A stretch of 64,000 nt of DNA from Desulfobacula sp. (GTDB lineage Bacteria; Desulfobacterota; Desulfobacteria; Desulfobacterales; Desulfobacteraceae): positions 1 through 64,000 of the forward strand of contig NZ_JAQYWD010000010.1 of the NCBI RefSeq assembly GCF_030145145.1, written 5' to 3'. Below the pieces are notes generated by a model. It ran no database searches. It worked only from the letters and a program-made list of their open reading frames with translations, and had not been told where the DNA came from. Made by a program: the position numbers and the translations under genes. Position 1 is the first letter of the stretch; each line of letters begins with the position of its first letter. This document shows, piece after piece, positions 160 to 8,786 of this stretch.

Positions 160-329
160 CCGATTCTATATCCAAGGATATATAAATGCTTAAACCCTTT
201 TTATGGGAAAGTGTAAAAAAAATTTGTGAGAAAGTTTTAAATTATAGTATAGTTCAAGAAGATCGGTATGGGAATGTGTGAAAATAGCCAGATATCATTA
301 AAAATTTTTCAGACAGGAATCAAGGTCAA

Positions 330-2111
330 ATGATGAATACCAATGAGAAAATAGCGTGTGTCAGACAATGGATGAAGGACAATGAACTGGCCGCACTTGT
401 CGTCCCAAGCGGTGACCCCCACCAGAGTGAATATGTGGCCGAACACTGGCAGGCAAGAAAATGGCTCACCGGGTTCTCCGGTTCGGCCGGAACAGCGGTG
501 ATTACCCTTGACCATGCCATTCTATGGACGGATTTTAGATACTACATCCAGGCTGAAAAACAGATCGCGGACTCACATTTCAAGCTGTATAAAATGGGAG
601 AACCGTCAGTCCCCTCCGTTGAAAAATGGTTGTCAGAGAATCTGGAATCCGGCGATACCATCGGTATTGATGGAAATGTGGTCAGCATGGCAAATGTGGA
701 AAAGATTGAAGCTGATTTTGAAACCAAAGGTCTGTTGTTGAAGACAACCATTGATATGATCAAGGATATCTGGGTCGACAGGCCAGCCCGACCGATGTCC
801 AATGCTTTTTCGTTGTCAAAACGATATACGGGAAATCGCCGGCAAGAAAACATCAAGGTCATCCGGGAACAGATGAATGCCCTGGGAGCGGCGTATCATT
901 TGATGGCAACCCTTGATGATATTGCCTGGACGTTGAATCTTCGGGGACAGGATATCCATACCAATCCGGTGAACATTGCTTTTGTCTTGATTGCCCCGGA
1001 AACGGTATCTTTATTTGTCAGCAAACAAAAAATCAGCCATGATCTTGAACAGGAATTGAACCGGGATGGTATTGTCCTTGTTGAATATGACGGCATCATG
1101 GATGCCTTATCCCAGATTCAAGACAGCCAGACGATTCTGATAGATCCTGAAAATACCAGTTACAGATTGTATCAGTCGATCAATAAAACCTGCAAGATTA
1201 TAAAAAAACCCAATCCAGCCATTGCACTGAAGGCAATAAAAAATGAGACACAAATTGCTCATTTGAGACAGACAGCTGTTAAAGATGGGGTGGCGGTGGT
1301 TCATTTTCTTTTCTGGCTGGAACATCAACCGGCAGATGCACAAATTACCGAACGGTCTGTTGCCGATAAACTGTATGCATTTCGAAAAAGTCAGGCGTTG
1401 TTTGTGGACAACAGCTTTGATCCGATTATGGCGTATCAGGATCATTCAGCCATGTGTCACTATACGGCAACCAAAGAATCCGATGCGGTCATTGGCCGAA
1501 ACGGGATGTTTTTAACCGATTCCGGGGGCAATTATTTTACCGGTACCACCGATATTACCCGGACCATTTTTCGGGGAGAACCGTCAAAACAGGAAAAAAT
1601 AGATTATACCCTGGTGCTCAAAGGTCATATTGCTGTGGCAACAACCTTGTTTCCCAGCGGCACTAAAGGTTTTCAGATTGATACGCTTGCCCGGCAGTAT
1701 TTGTGGCAGCAGGGCATGGATTTTGGTCATGGTACAGGGCATGGCGTGGGGTTCTTTTTATGTGTTCATGAAGGCCCGGCGAAAATAAGCCCCCATCCGG
1801 TTGATGTCAAACTTGAAAAGGGCATGGTACTGACCAATGAGCCCGGCCTCTATAGAGAGGGCCGGTATGGTATCCGGCTGGAAAACATGATTCTTGTGGA
1901 CCAGGCCTTTGAAAATGAGTTCGGGACATTTATGAAATTTGAGAACTTGACGCTGTGTCATTTTGAAAGAAATTTGATGGCCGGGGATCTGTTGTCCAGT
2001 GACGAAAAAGAGTGGATCAATGCCTATCATGCCATGGTAAATGAAAAACTGTCTCCCCATCTGGATGCAGCAGTGGCATCCTGGCTCAGGGAAAAAACCC
2101 GGCCCATTTAA
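330..2111 (+). CDS. Xaa-Pro aminopeptidase (M24B, aminopeptidase P)
   Basis: This 593-residue protein has the three-domain layout of the long (eukaryote-like) aminopeptidase P: two creatinase-like N-terminal domains (about 1-135 and 140-310) and a pita-bread metallopeptidase domain (about 310-535) with a C-terminal extension. The metal-ligand motifs are all visible: TDSGGNYFTGTTDITRT (two Asp), GHGTGHGVG (His), NEPGLY (Glu) and IRLENM (Glu). It should remove an N-terminal residue preceding proline from peptides, in the cytoplasm, using two Mn/Co-type metal ions. ATG 330 is followed at once by a second ATG at 333; an AAGG element precedes both. It stands alone, with about 400 bp of intergenic DNA downstream. 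Confidence 0.93.
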   Translation: MMNTNEKIACVRQWMKDNELAALVVPSGDPHQSEYVAEHWQARKWLTGFSGSAGTAVITLDHAILWTDFRYYIQAEKQIADSHFKLYKMGEPSVPSVEKWLSENLESGDTIGIDGNVVSMANVEKIEADFETKGLLLKTTIDMIKDIWVDRPARPMSNAFSLSKRYTGNRRQENIKVIREQMNALGAAYHLMATLDDIAWTLNLRGQDIHTNPVNIAFVLIAPETVSLFVSKQKISHDLEQELNRDGIVLVEYDGIMDALSQIQDSQTILIDPENTSYRLYQSINKTCKIIKKPNPAIALKAIKNETQIAHLRQTAVKDGVAVVHFLFWLEHQPADAQITERSVADKLYAFRKSQALFVDNSFDPIMAYQDHSAMCHYTATKESDAVIGRNGMFLTDSGGNYFTGTTDITRTIFRGEPSKQEKIDYTLVLKGHIAVATTLFPSGTKGFQIDTLARQYLWQQGMDFGHGTGHGVGFFLCVHEGPAKISPHPVDVKLEKGMVLTNEPGLYREGRYGIRLENMILVDQAFENEFGTFMKFENLTLCHFERNLMAGDLLSSDEKEWINAYHAMVNEKLSPHLDAAVASWLREKTRPI

Positions 2112-3505: not shown

Positions 3506-3685
3506 ATGGCAGAACCCAAAGATATGTATCAATGCCAGACAACGAATTGCGGTTATATTTATAATCCGGATAAAGGAGACAGAAAAGGAAAGATTGCAAA
3601 AGGAACGAAATTTGAAGATCTGCCCGAGGATTGGAAATGCCCGGTTTGCGGTGCCAGTACCAAAGCGTTTAAATGCCTTGGTTAA
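3506..3685 (+). CDS. Rubredoxin
   Basis: A 59-residue rubredoxin starting at ATG 3506 after AAAGGAG. It has both metal loops: [12 protein letters not shown] (a CxxxxC spacing, as in some two-iron-loop variants) and CPVCGAS. It carries one Fe(SCys)4 centre and transfers single electrons in the cytoplasm. In sulfate reducers the usual partners are rubrerythrin, rubredoxin:oxygen oxidoreductase and superoxide reductase. Here it sits 62 nt upstream of a rhodanese-rubrerythrin fusion, its most likely partner. The first loop has four residues between the cysteines where the standard rubredoxin has two. Confidence 0.9.
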
Positions 3686-3747: not shown

Positions 3748-4578
3748 ATGAAATGGATGCAGTTTTTTACACCGGCCAAATCATTGGATTTTAATGAGGC
3801 GGAAAACTATATTGCTCAACACCCGGGAGAGCAGATCACCATACTGGATGTCAGGCAGCCCTCGGAATACCAGGACAGCCATATTCCAGGGGCTGTCCTG
3901 ATCCCTTTGCCCCAGCTGTCAGACCGGCTGGGTGAGTTGGACCCTGAAAAACCGACCCTGGTCTATTGAGCCGTGGGCGGACGTAGCCGGGTGGCTGCAC
4001 AGATGCTGGCAGGAAAGGGGTTTAAACACGTCTATAATGTCTCCGGCGGGATAAAGGCCTGGCACGCAAAAACCGCCATTGGACCCCAGGATCTCGGGAT
4101 GACCCTTTTCAGCGGCAAAGAATCGCCGCTGGATGTGTTAACGGTAGCGTATTCCCTTGAACAGGGGCTGCAGGAATTTTATGTGACCATGGAACAAGAA
4201 GCGAAAAATGCGGCCGTAAAAGACCTTTTCGCGAAATTGTCGGAGATTGAAGTGAAACATCAGATGTCTATTTATACGGCATATTGTGACATCAGTGATA
4301 CACAACTGAGCAAAGAGGCCTTTGAAAAAACGGTTGAAGTAAAGGCCTTGGAAGGCGGTCTGTCTACCCGGGAATATCTGGAACTGTTCAATCCGGATCT
4401 GACGTCTGAGACAGACGTCATTTCCCTTGCCATGTCAATAGAAGCCCAGGCCCTGGACCTTTATCAAAGGGTATCATTTAAAATTGAAAACCAGGCATCA
4501 AGGGAGATCATCAATAAGATTGCCAATGAAGAAAAAGTACACTTGGCAAGCCTGGCGAAACTCATGGACAGTCTTTAA
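3748..4578 (+). CDS. Rhodanese-rubrerythrin fusion, probable selenoprotein (TGA = Sec74)
   Basis: Read through one in-frame TGA at 3967-3969, this is a 276-residue protein. Residues about 1-110 are a rhodanese domain (TILDVRQPSEYQDSHIPGA...), and residues about 115-276 are a ferritin-like/rubrerythrin four-helix domain with E...ExxH pairs (EIEVKH, NEEKVH). TGA falls exactly on the rhodanese catalytic position: VY-(TGA)-AVGGRSR matches the CxxGxRS active-site loop, and homology continues without a shift on both sides. Selenocysteine insertion is therefore the best reading. A candidate SECIS hairpin follows (GCCGG 3986-3990 with CTGGC 4006-4010). The start has a strong AAAGGAG. Expected role: sulfur or selenium transfer, or (seleno)persulfide reduction, linked to a diiron peroxidase-like centre. 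The alternative is a nonsense-mutated Cys protein. SelA/B/C are not in this window. Confidence 0.85.
3986..4010 (+). promoter_or_regulatory. Candidate bacterial SECIS stem-loop
   Basis: Sixteen nt after the in-frame TGA, GCCGG (3986-3990) can pair with CTGGC (4006-4010). Inside it, GTG/CAC can close a GCTG loop starting with G, a feature of bacterial SECIS elements. Found by eye, not folded computationally. Confidence 0.35.
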
Positions 4579-4628: not shown

Positions 4629-5750
4629 TTGAGAAAAAATCTTGTGCTTGTTGGAGGGGGCCATGCACACATGATGACCCTTGAGAATATCGATACGTTT
4701 GTTGAAAAGGGGTTTAAGGTAACGGTGATCGGTCCTTCCTTTCATCACTATTATTCCGGTATGGGACCGGGAATGCTGGGCGGGACCTATACACCGAAGG
4801 ATATCCGATTTGAGACAAAAATGGTGGTTCAAAAACAGGGGGGCGTTTTTGTAAAGGACAAGGTGGTCCGGATCGACCCGGGGAAAAAAGAGATTTATAC
4901 ACAGACCGGTCATACGTTTCCCTATGATGTCCTTTCCTTTAATGCGGGCAGTTATGTTCCCATGCCGGAAACGTTTGAAAACAGTGATACGGTTTTTTCG
5001 GTTAAACCCATTGAAAAACTCATGGAAGCAGCGGATAAACTCAAGGCCCTTTTTGCGATGAAAAAGGGTGTTGTCAGTATCGTTGGCGGTGGCCCCTCAT
5101 CTGCAGAAGTGGCGGGTAATGTCTGGCAGCTGGCAAGAAAAATGAACCAGCATCTGCCGGAAATCCATATTTTTGCCGGTAAAAAATTCATGTCCCGGTT
5201 TCCTGATAAAGTGCGATTAAGGGTTATTGCTTCCCTTAAAAAAAGGGGGGTTCTCATCCATGAGACCGGTTATGTCAAAGACGTCAAATCCCATGAAATT
5301 TGTCTTGACTCCGGCGATACATTTTCAACCGATTTTATTTTCATGGCCATGGGGGTCAAACCCTCGACTATTTTTGAGGCATCCGGTCTGCCTGTGGGGC
5401 CGGACAAAGGGCTTCTGGTAAATCAATACCTGCAGTCTGTCAGCTATCCTGACATATTCGGCGGTGGGGATTGTATCTGCTTTAAAGATCAACCGCTGGA
5501 TAAGGTGGGGGTATATGCGGTTCGACAAAACCCGGTTCTGCTGCACAACCTGATGGCAGCCCTGGAAGGCGGCACACTTGAGGTGTTTGATCCGGGGCCT
5601 GATTATCTGTTGATTTTTAACATCGGCGGTGGACAGGGGGTATTAAAGAAAAACAGTCTGGTGTTTGGCGGGAAAATGGCCTTTATGGTGAAAGACTATA
5701 TTGACCGTAAATTCATGAAGAAATTTCAGGCCATTGAAAAGCAGATATAA
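4629..5750 (+). CDS. SelD-associated pyridine nucleotide-disulfide oxidoreductase (TIGR03169-like)
   Basis: A 373-residue flavoprotein starting at TTG 4629 after AAAAGGAGAA. LVLVGGGHAH near the N-terminus is the FAD-binding glycine motif in the form typical of the TIGR03169 group; VSIVGGGPSSAE (about 155) is the NAD(P)H-binding motif, and DIFGGGDC (about 280) is the second FAD motif. The fold is NDH-2/sulfide:quinone-reductase-like. Members of this group are known as N-terminal halves of bifunctional proteins whose C-terminus is SelD (selenophosphate synthase), and as stand-alone proteins of unknown role. Its place 50 nt after a probable selenoprotein gene makes a selenium or sulfur link attractive. 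It has no SelD domain. An NDH-2-like quinone reductase is the alternative. Confidence 0.75.
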   Translation: MRKNLVLVGGGHAHMMTLENIDTFVEKGFKVTVIGPSFHHYYSGMGPGMLGGTYTPKDIRFETKMVVQKQGGVFVKDKVVRIDPGKKEIYTQTGHTFPYDVLSFNAGSYVPMPETFENSDTVFSVKPIEKLMEAADKLKALFAMKKGVVSIVGGGPSSAEVAGNVWQLARKMNQHLPEIHIFAGKKFMSRFPDKVRLRVIASLKKRGVLIHETGYVKDVKSHEICLDSGDTFSTDFIFMAMGVKPSTIFEASGLPVGPDKGLLVNQYLQSVSYPDIFGGGDCICFKDQPLDKVGVYAVRQNPVLLHNLMAALEGGTLEVFDPGPDYLLIFNIGGGQGVLKKNSLVFGGKMAFMVKDYIDRKFMKKFQAIEKQI

Positions 5751-5808
5751 CCGGCCCTTTTGCAATGGTCATCAAGGATTGAAAACGGGGTAAAAAAGGA
5801 AAACACGA

Positions 5809-7953
5809 ATGAAAAAAAACCAGGGATTCAAGGTCGCACTGTTGGTTGTAATCGCCGGGCTAATCGTCCTGTTTTTCTGGTTTGATCTGGATCACAATTT
5901 TTCGCTGGCCAGCCTGAAAAATAAACTGGATGCCTTCAACGATTATTACGGTGAGCATAACGTTACCACCATGATAATTTACATGGCCGTTTATATCCTC
6001 ATGGCGGCTTTGTCCCTTCCCGGTGCTGTCATGATGACCCTGGCAGGTGGTGCCGTGTTCGGGGTCATTTACGGGACGCTTCTGGTTTCCTTTGCCAGTT
6101 CCATCGGTGCGACCCTTGCTTTTCTATTTTCCCGGTACCTGTTCAGGGACTGGGTTCAGCATAAATTTTCTTCAAAGCTTGCTGCCATTAACAGGGGGAT
6201 AGAAAAAGAGGGGGGGTTTTACCTGTTTACGTTAAGGCTTGTGCCGGCGTTTCCTTTTTTTGTGATCAACCTGGTGATGGGGTTGACCCCGCTGCGGCCA
6301 AGCGTTTTTTATATGGTTTCCCAAGTCGGCATGCTGCCTGGAACCCTGGTGTTTGTCAATGCGGGAACTCAGTTGGCTAAAATCGAATCAGCCGGTGGGA
6401 TTTTATCGTTGAACCTTCTGGTGTCCTTTGCCCTGCTGGGGATTTTTCCGATTATCGCCAAACGATTCACCGCGGCTGTAAGGCAGCGGAAGGTATGGGC
6501 TAAATTTATAAAGCCCAGGACATATGACTATAATCTGGTGGTCATCGGTGCGGGATCTGCCGGGCTTGTGGCATCCTATATTGCCGCAGCCGTGAATGCA
6601 AAAGTCGCTTTGATTGAGGCACATCGGATGGGCGGGGATTGTCTGAATACCGGTTGCATCCCCAGCAAGGCCCTTCTTGCCAGTGCCAAACTTCTCGCCC
6701 ATGCGAAAAGAGCCAAGGACTATGGGCTGGACACGGCTGAAATCACATTTGATTTTGCAGCGGTCATGGAGCGGATTCAATCTATTATCAAGAAAGTGGC
6801 CCCCCATGATTCCATTGACCGGTATACTGAATTGGGGGTGGAGTGTATTCAGGGTCGGGCAACCATCGCATCTCCGTTTGAGGTTTGTGTGGGGGATAGA
6901 ACCTTAACCACGAAAAATATCATTGTAGCCACCGGTGCAACACCAATGGTGCCTGACCTGCCGGGGCTGGAAAAGATATCCTATCTGACCTCGGATACGA
7001 TCTGGGATATCCGGACACTGCCCAAAAACCTGGTGGTGCTGGGAGCAGGACCCATTGGGTGTGAGCTGGCCCAGGGGTTCGCAAGACTGGGGTCAAAGGT
7101 GACCCTTGTCCAGAGGGGTTCCCGGATAATGAAAAAGGAAGATCCCGATGCCGCCCAAATTGTATTAAACCGGTTTCAGGCTGAAGGCATTGAGGTGTTG
7201 TTGACGCATGCTGCCAAATCAGTGGACGTTGTGGGGGAGGAGAAACAACTGATTTGTGAACATCAGGGAAAAGAGGTCCGGATAAAATTTGATGAGATTC
7301 TGATTGCCCTTGGCAGAGTACCGAATGTTAAGGGATTTGGTCTTGAAGAACTGGGGGTTGATATATCCCGGAATCAACAGATTGAAACCAATGAATTTTT
7401 ACAGACCAATTATCCCAATATTTATTGCAGTGGCGATGTGCATGGCCGGTATCAGTTTACCCACACGGCAGCCCACGAATCCTGGTATGCGTCTGTCAAT
7501 GCATTGTTTGGCAGATTAAAAAAATTCAGCGTGGATTATGATACCATTCCATGGGCAACCTATACGGATCCTGAAGTGGCCAGGGTCGGCATTAATGAGA
7601 CAGAGGCCACCCTGGCCGGGATGGATTATGAGATGGTTAAATATGGCATTGATGACCTTGACCGGGCCATTGCAGATTCTGAAGATCATGGATTTGTAAA
7701 GGTTTTGACGGTACCGGGAAAGGATAAAATATTGGGGGTTACCATTGTGGGGCATCATGCGGCTGACGTAATTTCCGAGTTTGTGCTTGCAATGAAGCAC
7801 GGAATAGGGTTGAATAAAATCCTTGGGACCATCCACATTTATCCCACAATGGCGGAAGCCAATAAGTATGCAGCCGGGGTGTGGAAGAGAGTTCATGCAC
7901 CTAAAAAATTACTTGTATGGGTGGGGAAATACCACGACTGGATGCGAAAATAA
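5809..7953 (+). CDS. TVP38/DedA-type membrane domain fused to dihydrolipoamide dehydrogenase-like reductase
   Basis: The protein has 714 residues. Residues about 1-225 form a membrane domain with several hydrophobic helices and the SNARE-associated/TVP38 signature region (LPGAVMMTLAGGAVFG; FTLRLVPAFPF). From about 237 it is a full pyridine nucleotide-disulfide oxidoreductase: FAD motif VVIGAGSAGL, redox-active GGDCLNTGCIPSK, NAD motif VVLGAGPIGCE, and the C-terminal dimer domain with HIYPTMAE containing the catalytic His. It should pass electrons from NAD(P)H through FAD to a disulfide at the membrane. The same fusion is known in cyanobacteria and other bacteria, usually labelled mercuric-reductase-like; its substrate is not established. 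A clear AAAAGGA precedes ATG 5809. Confidence 0.88.
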   Translation: MKKNQGFKVALLVVIAGLIVLFFWFDLDHNFSLASLKNKLDAFNDYYGEHNVTTMIIYMAVYILMAALSLPGAVMMTLAGGAVFGVIYGTLLVSFASSIGATLAFLFSRYLFRDWVQHKFSSKLAAINRGIEKEGGFYLFTLRLVPAFPFFVINLVMGLTPLRPSVFYMVSQVGMLPGTLVFVNAGTQLAKIESAGGILSLNLLVSFALLGIFPIIAKRFTAAVRQRKVWAKFIKPRTYDYNLVVIGAGSAGLVASYIAAAVNAKVALIEAHRMGGDCLNTGCIPSKALLASAKLLAHAKRAKDYGLDTAEITFDFAAVMERIQSIIKKVAPHDSIDRYTELGVECIQGRATIASPFEVCVGDRTLTTKNIIVATGATPMVPDLPGLEKISYLTSDTIWDIRTLPKNLVVLGAGPIGCELAQGFARLGSKVTLVQRGSRIMKKEDPDAAQIVLNRFQAEGIEVLLTHAAKSVDVVGEEKQLICEHQGKEVRIKFDEILIALGRVPNVKGFGLEELGVDISRNQQIETNEFLQTNYPNIYCSGDVHGRYQFTHTAAHESWYASVNALFGRLKKFSVDYDTIPWATYTDPEVARVGINETEATLAGMDYEMVKYGIDDLDRAIADSEDHGFVKVLTVPGKDKILGVTIVGHHAADVISEFVLAMKHGIGLNKILGTIHIYPTMAEANKYAAGVWKRVHAPKKLLVWVGKYHDWMRK

Positions 7954-8196: not shown

Positions 8197-8210
8197 AAAA
8201 GAAGGTGTCT

Positions 8211-8786
8211 ATGGTTAAGTTCAGGGAAAGCCAGACAGCGATTAATCTTCATACGTCCTTTGCAGCAGAGACCCAGGCCAGAACACGGTATGATTTTTTT
8301 GCCAACAAAGCCCGGGATGAGGGGTATATCCAGATTGCGAAAATCTTCCAAGAAACGGCAGGCCAGGAATTTGAACATGCCCTGCGGTTTTTTAAATTTT
8401 TCAACGGGGGGGAGCTTGAAATACAATGGACCTTTCCCACTGGTGTGATCAAGGATACCCATGCCAACCTTCTTTCGGCGGCCGCATTGGAAAAATATGT
8501 CAGTGAGGACATGTATGCCAAATTTGCCAAAATCGCTGAAGATGAAGGGTTTGAGAGAGCAAAAGATACGTTTGTCAATATTATTGTCGCTGAAAAGCAC
8601 CATGAAAAGCTCTACCTTGAGCTGGCCGACAATATTGCAGCGGACAGGGTCTTTCAACGAGACGATGAACGCGTCTGGCGGTGCCTGAGCTGTGGATACA
8701 TTCACACGGGAAAAGCAGCCCCCCAAAAGTGCCCGGCTTGTGTGAAGCCCGCCGGTTTTTTTGAGTTGCTGTGTGAAAATTGGTAA
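8211..8786 (+). CDS. Rubrerythrin
   Basis: A 191-residue rubrerythrin. The diiron ferritin-like domain occupies about 1-150 (ETQARTRYDFF; GQEFEHA; EKHHEKLY provide the Glu/His ligands), and the C-terminal rubredoxin-like site is CLSCGY...CPACVKP. It reduces hydrogen peroxide to water with electrons from rubredoxin or ferredoxin and protects anaerobes from transient oxygen. ATG 8211 is preferred over GTG 8205 because GAAGG at 8201-8205 is then correctly spaced. It follows the ferredoxin gene directly and ends before a long palindrome. Confidence 0.92.
   Translation: MVKFRESQTAINLHTSFAAETQARTRYDFFANKARDEGYIQIAKIFQETAGQEFEHALRFFKFFNGGELEIQWTFPTGVIKDTHANLLSAAALEKYVSEDMYAKFAKIAEDEGFERAKDTFVNIIVAEKHHEKLYLELADNIAADRVFQRDDERVWRCLSCGYIHTGKAAPQKCPACVKPAGFFELLCENW

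Follow-up and report, generated by a model that had tools for sequence, protein, structure and literature searches.

The accessible text of PMC1088965 and PMC2398784 reports Sec-containing sulfurtransferases (Sec, selenocysteine) for the Sargasso Sea and for GOS, in line with the statement, made in a preliminary description of the locus studied here, that rhodanese-type selenoproteins are known from metagenomes. The available part of PMC9312934 includes a rhodanese-like protein and COG0607 forms, without a motif and with CxU, and that of PMC8318568, which deals with a marine deltaproteobacterium, names "a rhodanese-like domain" among the Sec proteins. In the portion of PMC13188914 that we could consult, forms 2 and 4 of a "Rhodanese-like domain-containing protein" are catalogued with PF00581 and the motif UxxG.

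Here, we describe a gene in a 64,000-nucleotide stretch of a Desulfobacula sp. contig (the window) in which a rhodanese domain is fused to a ferritin-like diiron domain and in which the in-frame TGA at positions 3967 to 3969 almost certainly encodes Sec, so that, on comparative evidence, the product would be a genuine selenoprotein.

Gene organization and domain content

The gene occupies positions 3748 to 4578 of the forward strand. The frame that runs from the ATG at 3748 to the stop codon ending at 4578 is interrupted in the window sequence by a single internal stop, the TGA at codon 74, and an AGGAG that resembles a ribosome-binding site lies a few bases upstream of the ATG. Read through, the product has 276 amino acids, a length that corresponds to about 31 kDa, with a predicted Sec (Sec74) at the rhodanese catalytic position. 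With Cys substituted for Sec, Pfam placed a Rhodanese domain (PF00581) at residues 28 to 108 (8.7e-23, 81.1 bits; cut-off, 22.2) and a Rubrerythrin domain (PF02915) at residues 129 to 273 (3.9e-10, 40.7 bits; cut-off, 22.8). This pair of matches confirms the homology that had been described as unbroken and in the same frame on both sides of the TGA, while the frame, the Pfam result, and the codons of the relatives together uphold the claim that the TGA stands at the site of the rhodanese catalytic Cys, within the active-site peptide V-Y-U-A-V-G-G-R-S-R.

The only match spanning the whole fusion in the host genome (5.66 Mb, 89 contigs) was the window gene. Scans for promoters and terminators gave no excess over shuffled sequences (10 versus 10.2 and 8 versus 7.8, respectively), and a plasmid search returned 442 records, none of which covered 80% of the query. 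A scan of 84,980 species genomes yielded 63 relatives; the six peptide patterns used for it all left out the codon 74 site. The near relatives with family-level names were from Desulfobacteraceae and Desulfobacula and mark the host as kin of sulfate reducers. The window protein and 44 of these 63 relatives made up a protein alignment of 45 rows, reaching down to 45% identity.

Rhodanese and diiron domains

The active-site loop of rhodaneses is defined by a nucleophile and a closing Arg, and both are found in the fusion, with position 74 as the predicted nucleophile and a domain profile above the cut-off. Y73, U/C74, G77, R79, S80, and R81 of this loop are invariant in all 45 rows. We expect Sec74 to be the rhodanese nucleophile, in a loop that has four residues ahead of the closing Arg. 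Residue 74 is also the sole conserved Cys/Sec column of the fusion in the 45 rows, and because no other Cys is conserved that could act as a resolving Cys, the site appears to be a single-chalcogen one that needs an external reductant. Sec74 would most likely either take up sulfane sulfur from polysulfide or thiosulfate, giving an Se-S(-) intermediate, or react with peroxide, and in both cases it would be turned over by a reductant from outside the protein.

The ferritin-like domain (positions 4102 to 4575, forward strand; from residue 119) contains two E/ExxH half-sites, and the presumed diiron ligands E138, E168 and H171 (E168-x-x-H171), E232, and E262 and H265 (E262-x-x-H265) are invariant in 45 of 45 rows. 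Another acidic residue, E202, lies between the two half-sites and is likewise invariant in the 45 rows together with G203 and G204. Among solved proteins, TM1526 (1vjx; E value, 9.8e-6) is the closest to this C-terminal domain in sequence. The rubredoxin-like FeS4 domain of rubrerythrin proper was not found in the protein, which gives no PF21349 match and ends at residue 276, and the separate rubrerythrin of the window gave only a weak score (6.4 bits) against a profile made from the diiron domain. The original label of a rubrerythrin fusion thus holds as far as the ferritin-like domain and its PF02915 match are concerned but calls for a correction in one detail: "ferritin-like diiron domain" is the safer name because there is no rubredoxin part and the nearest solved relative is TM1526.

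The tethered diiron domain would, in our proposal, reduce peroxide or O2. The relationship to TM1526, which is not a rubrerythrin, also speaks for a chain that holds two independent enzymes, a Sec-dependent peroxide or thiol reductase of the usual selenoprotein type and an uncoupled ferritin-like domain that only stores or oxidizes iron. We consider this arrangement unlikely, as all 45 rows, which reach down to 45% identity and were found with the whole fusion as the query, preserve the fusion, its length, and its ligands.

Neighboring genes

Directly downstream of the fusion, on the same strand, lies a gene for an FAD/NAD(P) oxidoreductase (positions 4629 to 5750) that is a conserved partner, being immediately downstream in 57 of the 63 loci, in Sec and Cys forms alike. 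Of the other six loci, three have codon 74 within 700 bases of the end of their contig. The flavoprotein matched TIGR03169 ("Nterm_to_SelD") over the full length of the model with 254.2 bits, and the next NCBIfam model reached 132; with a cut-off of 310, it can be classed from its sequence as related to TIGR03169 and not as a member. When 54 of the 57 partner loci were aligned (three short matches were left out), a single invariant Cys was seen, C282, in 55 of 55 rows. Within the tblastn match, the partner gene has three in-frame TGA codons in locus L042 and one TAA in L049.

The other neighbors, all on the forward strand, are an upstream rubredoxin gene (positions 3506 to 3685), matched in 21 of the 63 loci, and two downstream genes that are neighbors in near relatives, one for a VTT membrane domain fused to a MerA/dihydrolipoamide dehydrogenase-like flavoprotein (positions 5809 to 7953) and the other for the separate rubrerythrin (positions 8205 to 8786; NF045767, 232.9 bits; cut-off, 200). 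This gene neighborhood suggests oxygen and peroxide defense together with sulfane-sulfur chemistry, and the adjoining flavoprotein would be the best candidate to carry electrons from NAD(P)H to the Sec site, the diiron center, or both.

The kinship of the flavoprotein also brings up a role in selenium supply, in which the Sec rhodanese would act as a carrier that binds reduced selenium or sulfane sulfur and delivers it, for instance, to SelD, the SelD-type flavoprotein would make or hold selenide, and the diiron domain would guard an oxygen-labile step. The nearest NCBIfam model is that of a domain found fused to SelD, the flavoprotein is by far the best match to this model in the genome (254 bits, versus 83 for the next), and the commonest SelD fusion partners are NADH dehydrogenase-like domains, according to the available text of PMC4561486. 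On the other hand, the score lies under the TIGR03169 cut-off, and the model was matched weakly in 14 of 14 control genomes, so it responds to other flavoproteins too. Moreover, the operon is retained where the site is Cys, and its co-occurrence with Sec use is uninformative, since 359 of the 389 class genomes have SelA (at 1e-50). This carrier scheme seems to us quite improbable.

The account that we favor instead, as probably the best explanation of the locus as a whole, combines Sec insertion, a single-chalcogen rhodanese, a flavoprotein, and a diiron module. Within it, we infer that the domains are coupled, and what the flavoprotein does, from the fusion and the gene neighborhood. The new kind of persulfide or peroxide enzyme put forward in the preliminary description is an inference. 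The whole protein could tentatively be seen as a detoxification module of an anaerobe against peroxide and persulfide, a purpose for which we would put the chances somewhat below even. A bolder version, in which the selenium nucleophile and the diiron center cooperate in one enzyme fed by the SelD-type flavoprotein, would make the protein a selenium-dependent persulfide/peroxide oxidoreductase and a new chalcogen-plus-iron module; we regard this version, with such a module spread among relatives of sulfate reducers and switched again and again between Sec and Cys, as doubtful.

Selenocysteine at codon 74

Codon 74 was TGA in 56 of the 63 relatives, TGC in 5, and TGT in 2, with no other codon. 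Within the class, the fusion was matched at 1e-40 in 205 of the 389 genomes, some of the weak matches perhaps being paralogues, and among the class matches listed, 90 of 150 rows had one TGA and 60 had none. We read codon 74 in 89 class loci, 82 by script and 7 by eye; 48 had TGA and 41 a Cys codon. The seven read by eye, which fell outside the motif (L156, L157, L172, L174, L177, L180, and L181), accounted for 5 TGA and 2 Cys codons. These loci consist of 59 hand-picked places (40 without a stop and 19 with TGA, one of them requested twice) and 30 others, and because of the hand-picking, their ratio of Sec to Cys is not a frequency. Among them are the copy in the window itself (L099) and a gene that appears twice (L122/L123); without these, the counts are 47 of 87 for TGA and 40 of 87 for Cys, in species that partly overlap those of the 63 relatives.

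The preliminary description had proposed looking for Cys at the aligned position in homologues, and it is there, in 7 of the 63 relatives and in 40 of the 87 class genes. It had also considered that the codon might in truth be TGC or TGT; such a sequencing error is untenable because the TGA recurs at codon 74 in many genomes. Three particular cases may be mentioned. Desulfopila aestuarii DSM 18488 (L069) is a relative that has TGA. Desulfopila sp. IMCC35006 has two copies of the fusion (L060 and L061), both with TGA, and the flavoprotein partner is beside one only. A copy in a Desulfobacula bin (L070, positions 5001 to 5826) contains six in-frame TGA codons, five of them outside the Sec site, and is probably a frameshifted or damaged assembly.

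The machinery for Sec insertion, whose presence in the genome had been named as a check, was found: SelA, SelB, tRNA-Sec, and SelD were each matched above the curated cut-off in the host genome. The SelD of this genome (L089; G000 C74:71040-71963) has an internal TGA and is thus probably a selenoprotein itself. SelA was also present in all 14 genomes checked, 7 of which have the Cys form, and in all 38 of a further set with the Cys form, which means that Cys at codon 74 does not imply that Sec use has been lost. Of the three outcomes that the preliminary description had listed as refuting Sec, none was observed.

SECIS-like hairpin

A bSECIS-like hairpin is found downstream of the TGA on the forward strand (positions 3983 to 3998), with a stem formed by 3983 to 3988 and 3993 to 3998 (GTAGCC/GGCTGC) and the loop GGGT at 3989 to 3992. 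We propose that SelB, directed by this hairpin, would place Sec at the UGA. The hairpin starts 13 nucleotides (nt) past the TGA, has a stem of 6 bp and a spacing of 19 nt from TGA to loop, and has an energy of -9.7 kcal/mol when the 22-nt hairpin segment is folded. All these values satisfy the bSECIS limits given in the accessible part of PMC13188914, namely, a loop of 3 to 9 nt, a stem of 4 to 16 bp, a distance of 16 to 37 nt from the UGA, a G within the first two bases of the loop, and an MFE of at most -7.5.

We pooled the window with the 63 relatives and the 82 class loci for comparison, and the resulting 146 loci, many from the same species, were collapsed to 113 distinct segments; the seven class loci outside the motif are absent from these segments and from the tree described below. 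The strongest test of the hairpin is the comparison between Sec and Cys orthologues, which code for a nearly identical peptide. All five core pairs were formed in 67 of 70 Sec-type but 10 of 43 Cys-type sequences (Fisher, 2.6e-16; 113 distinct sequences). For Ala83, the synonymous codon with the third base that the stem pairing requires, GCT, was used in 67 of 70 versus 11 of 43 (Fisher, 1.7e-15), and the median pairing probability of the helix (nt 10 to 39) was 0.94 for Sec and 0.006 for Cys. Stem pair 18-31 is C-G, U-G, or A-U throughout the 70 Sec sequences, with zero mismatches, the A-U form coming at the cost of an Ala84-to-Ser change. The loci with this form (L045, L050, L053, and L055) all sit in one clade, so the change was probably a single event. 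The helix is retained in 10 of the 43 Cys genes, as might be expected if some of them switched recently.

To allow for kinship among the sequences compared, we computed a quick tree from 117 proteins after masking the codon 74 site, for which the program cautions that long branches meet; the incomplete L063 and L066, L070 with its several in-frame TGA codons, and L099 (the window itself) were further left out. The best tree has 17 changes between Sec and Cys, at least 8 of which are forced by well-supported (starred) branches. Averaged over 200 pairings, 5.6 of 8 independent pairs showed the helix together with Sec and 0.0 showed the opposite, which gives a modest sign test for the helix (median P, 0.031; range, 0.016 to 0.25) and a weaker one for Ala83 as GCT alone (0.0625).

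Tests based on energy gave a different picture. Counted from the window TGA, 42 nt show no advantage in folding over dinucleotide shuffles (z, 0.28), and their minimum-energy structure is another fold, while that of 48 nt does contain the hairpin; MFE against synonymous shuffles did not separate Sec from Cys sequences (P, 0.37). Covariation is thin in a DNA alignment of the window with 46 Sec loci out of 56, with a two-sided change in one of the five stem pairs, a count matched by 72 of 500 shuffles, and a search of Rfam gave no SECIS match at the locus, its three hits each being under the gathering score. We rejected a chance hairpin after testing it against Cys orthologues, slid pairs, and the tree, the negative energy-only tests notwithstanding. 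The folding check suggested at the outset has therefore a mixed outcome, as the hairpin lies within the limits and goes with Sec, but energy alone does not single it out.

A rival reading takes the TGA for a real stop, a sequencing error, or a sign of a pseudogene, with a restart at the GTG at 3973 giving a free ferritin-like protein. It agrees with the mechanical list of open reading frames (those under 80 amino acids unlisted), which without recoding gives exactly a GTG-started frame of 201 amino acids from 3973, and is nonetheless hardly credible and was rejected, given the TGA or Cys in every one of the 63 and 89 loci, the unbroken homology on both sides, the Sec machinery in the genome, and the hairpin that goes with Sec. 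Annotation without recoding would turn the gene into a 73-amino-acid fragment and a headless ferritin-like protein. The Sec rhodanese joined to a diiron domain adds a domain architecture to the selenoprotein set, and the near relatives, as a natural series of orthologues with either Sec or Cys, make a good test case for why cells keep Sec at a sulfur-handling site and for how SECIS elements arise and decay.

Comparison with known systems

The diiron half of the fusion is of the same E/ExxH/E/ExxH type as TM1526 (1vjx) and rubrerythrin (PF02915), which, to our knowledge, come without a rhodanese domain; the fusion has no counterpart to the rubredoxin domain at the C terminus of rubrerythrin proper. 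The rhodanese parts of proteins of the coenzyme A-disulfide reductase-rhodanese type (3nta, 3icr, and 8a56) matched that of the fusion. These proteins are rhodanese-flavoprotein persulfide reductases and offer an analogy of mechanism only, in that both systems appear to pair a rhodanese with an FAD/NAD(P) oxidoreductase. In them, however, rhodanese and flavoprotein share one chain, whereas here the flavoprotein is encoded by a separate TIGR03169-like gene and the rhodanese is fused to the diiron domain.

Among selenoprotein families, the rhodanese-related (seleno)protein NF041203 matched the rhodanese domain of the fusion weakly, with 39.9 bits, far under its cut-off of 115, and it carries a CxU motif according to the table of PMC13188914, in contrast to the UxxG of the fusion. 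The TsoB rhodanese/DsbD fusion-like selenoprotein (NF045694) likewise joins a Sec-type rhodanese to another redox domain. It was also a weak match (23 bits; cut-off, 805), its partner domain is a different one, and it has two Sec residues, in a UxxxxU motif (same table, as available). The host genome contains a second rhodanese-like gene (L182, positions 285 to 698, minus strand; G000 C55:67600-68500) with two active-site TGA codons, in the peptide F-Y-U-G-U-A-D-D, which is possibly a double-Sec rhodanese akin to the CxU kind.

Forms 2 and 4 of the PMC13188914 catalogue, for which MBM9537886.1 and MCY3690685.1 are given as example proteins, share with the fusion a Sec at the rhodanese catalytic position and the U-x-x-G spacing (U-A-V-G here). 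They are set apart by their description in the table, not by their sequences, as no ferritin-like or rubrerythrin domain is named there, and the text of that paper as available contains neither "rubrerythrin" nor "ferritin." Our literature search, made mostly outside subscription papers, returned no paper on a fusion of a Sec rhodanese with a diiron domain, which may have been seen without being named. As far as the literature searched goes, then, a rhodanese with Sec is already known, and what is new is its fusion to a diiron domain together with a conserved SelD-type flavoprotein partner.
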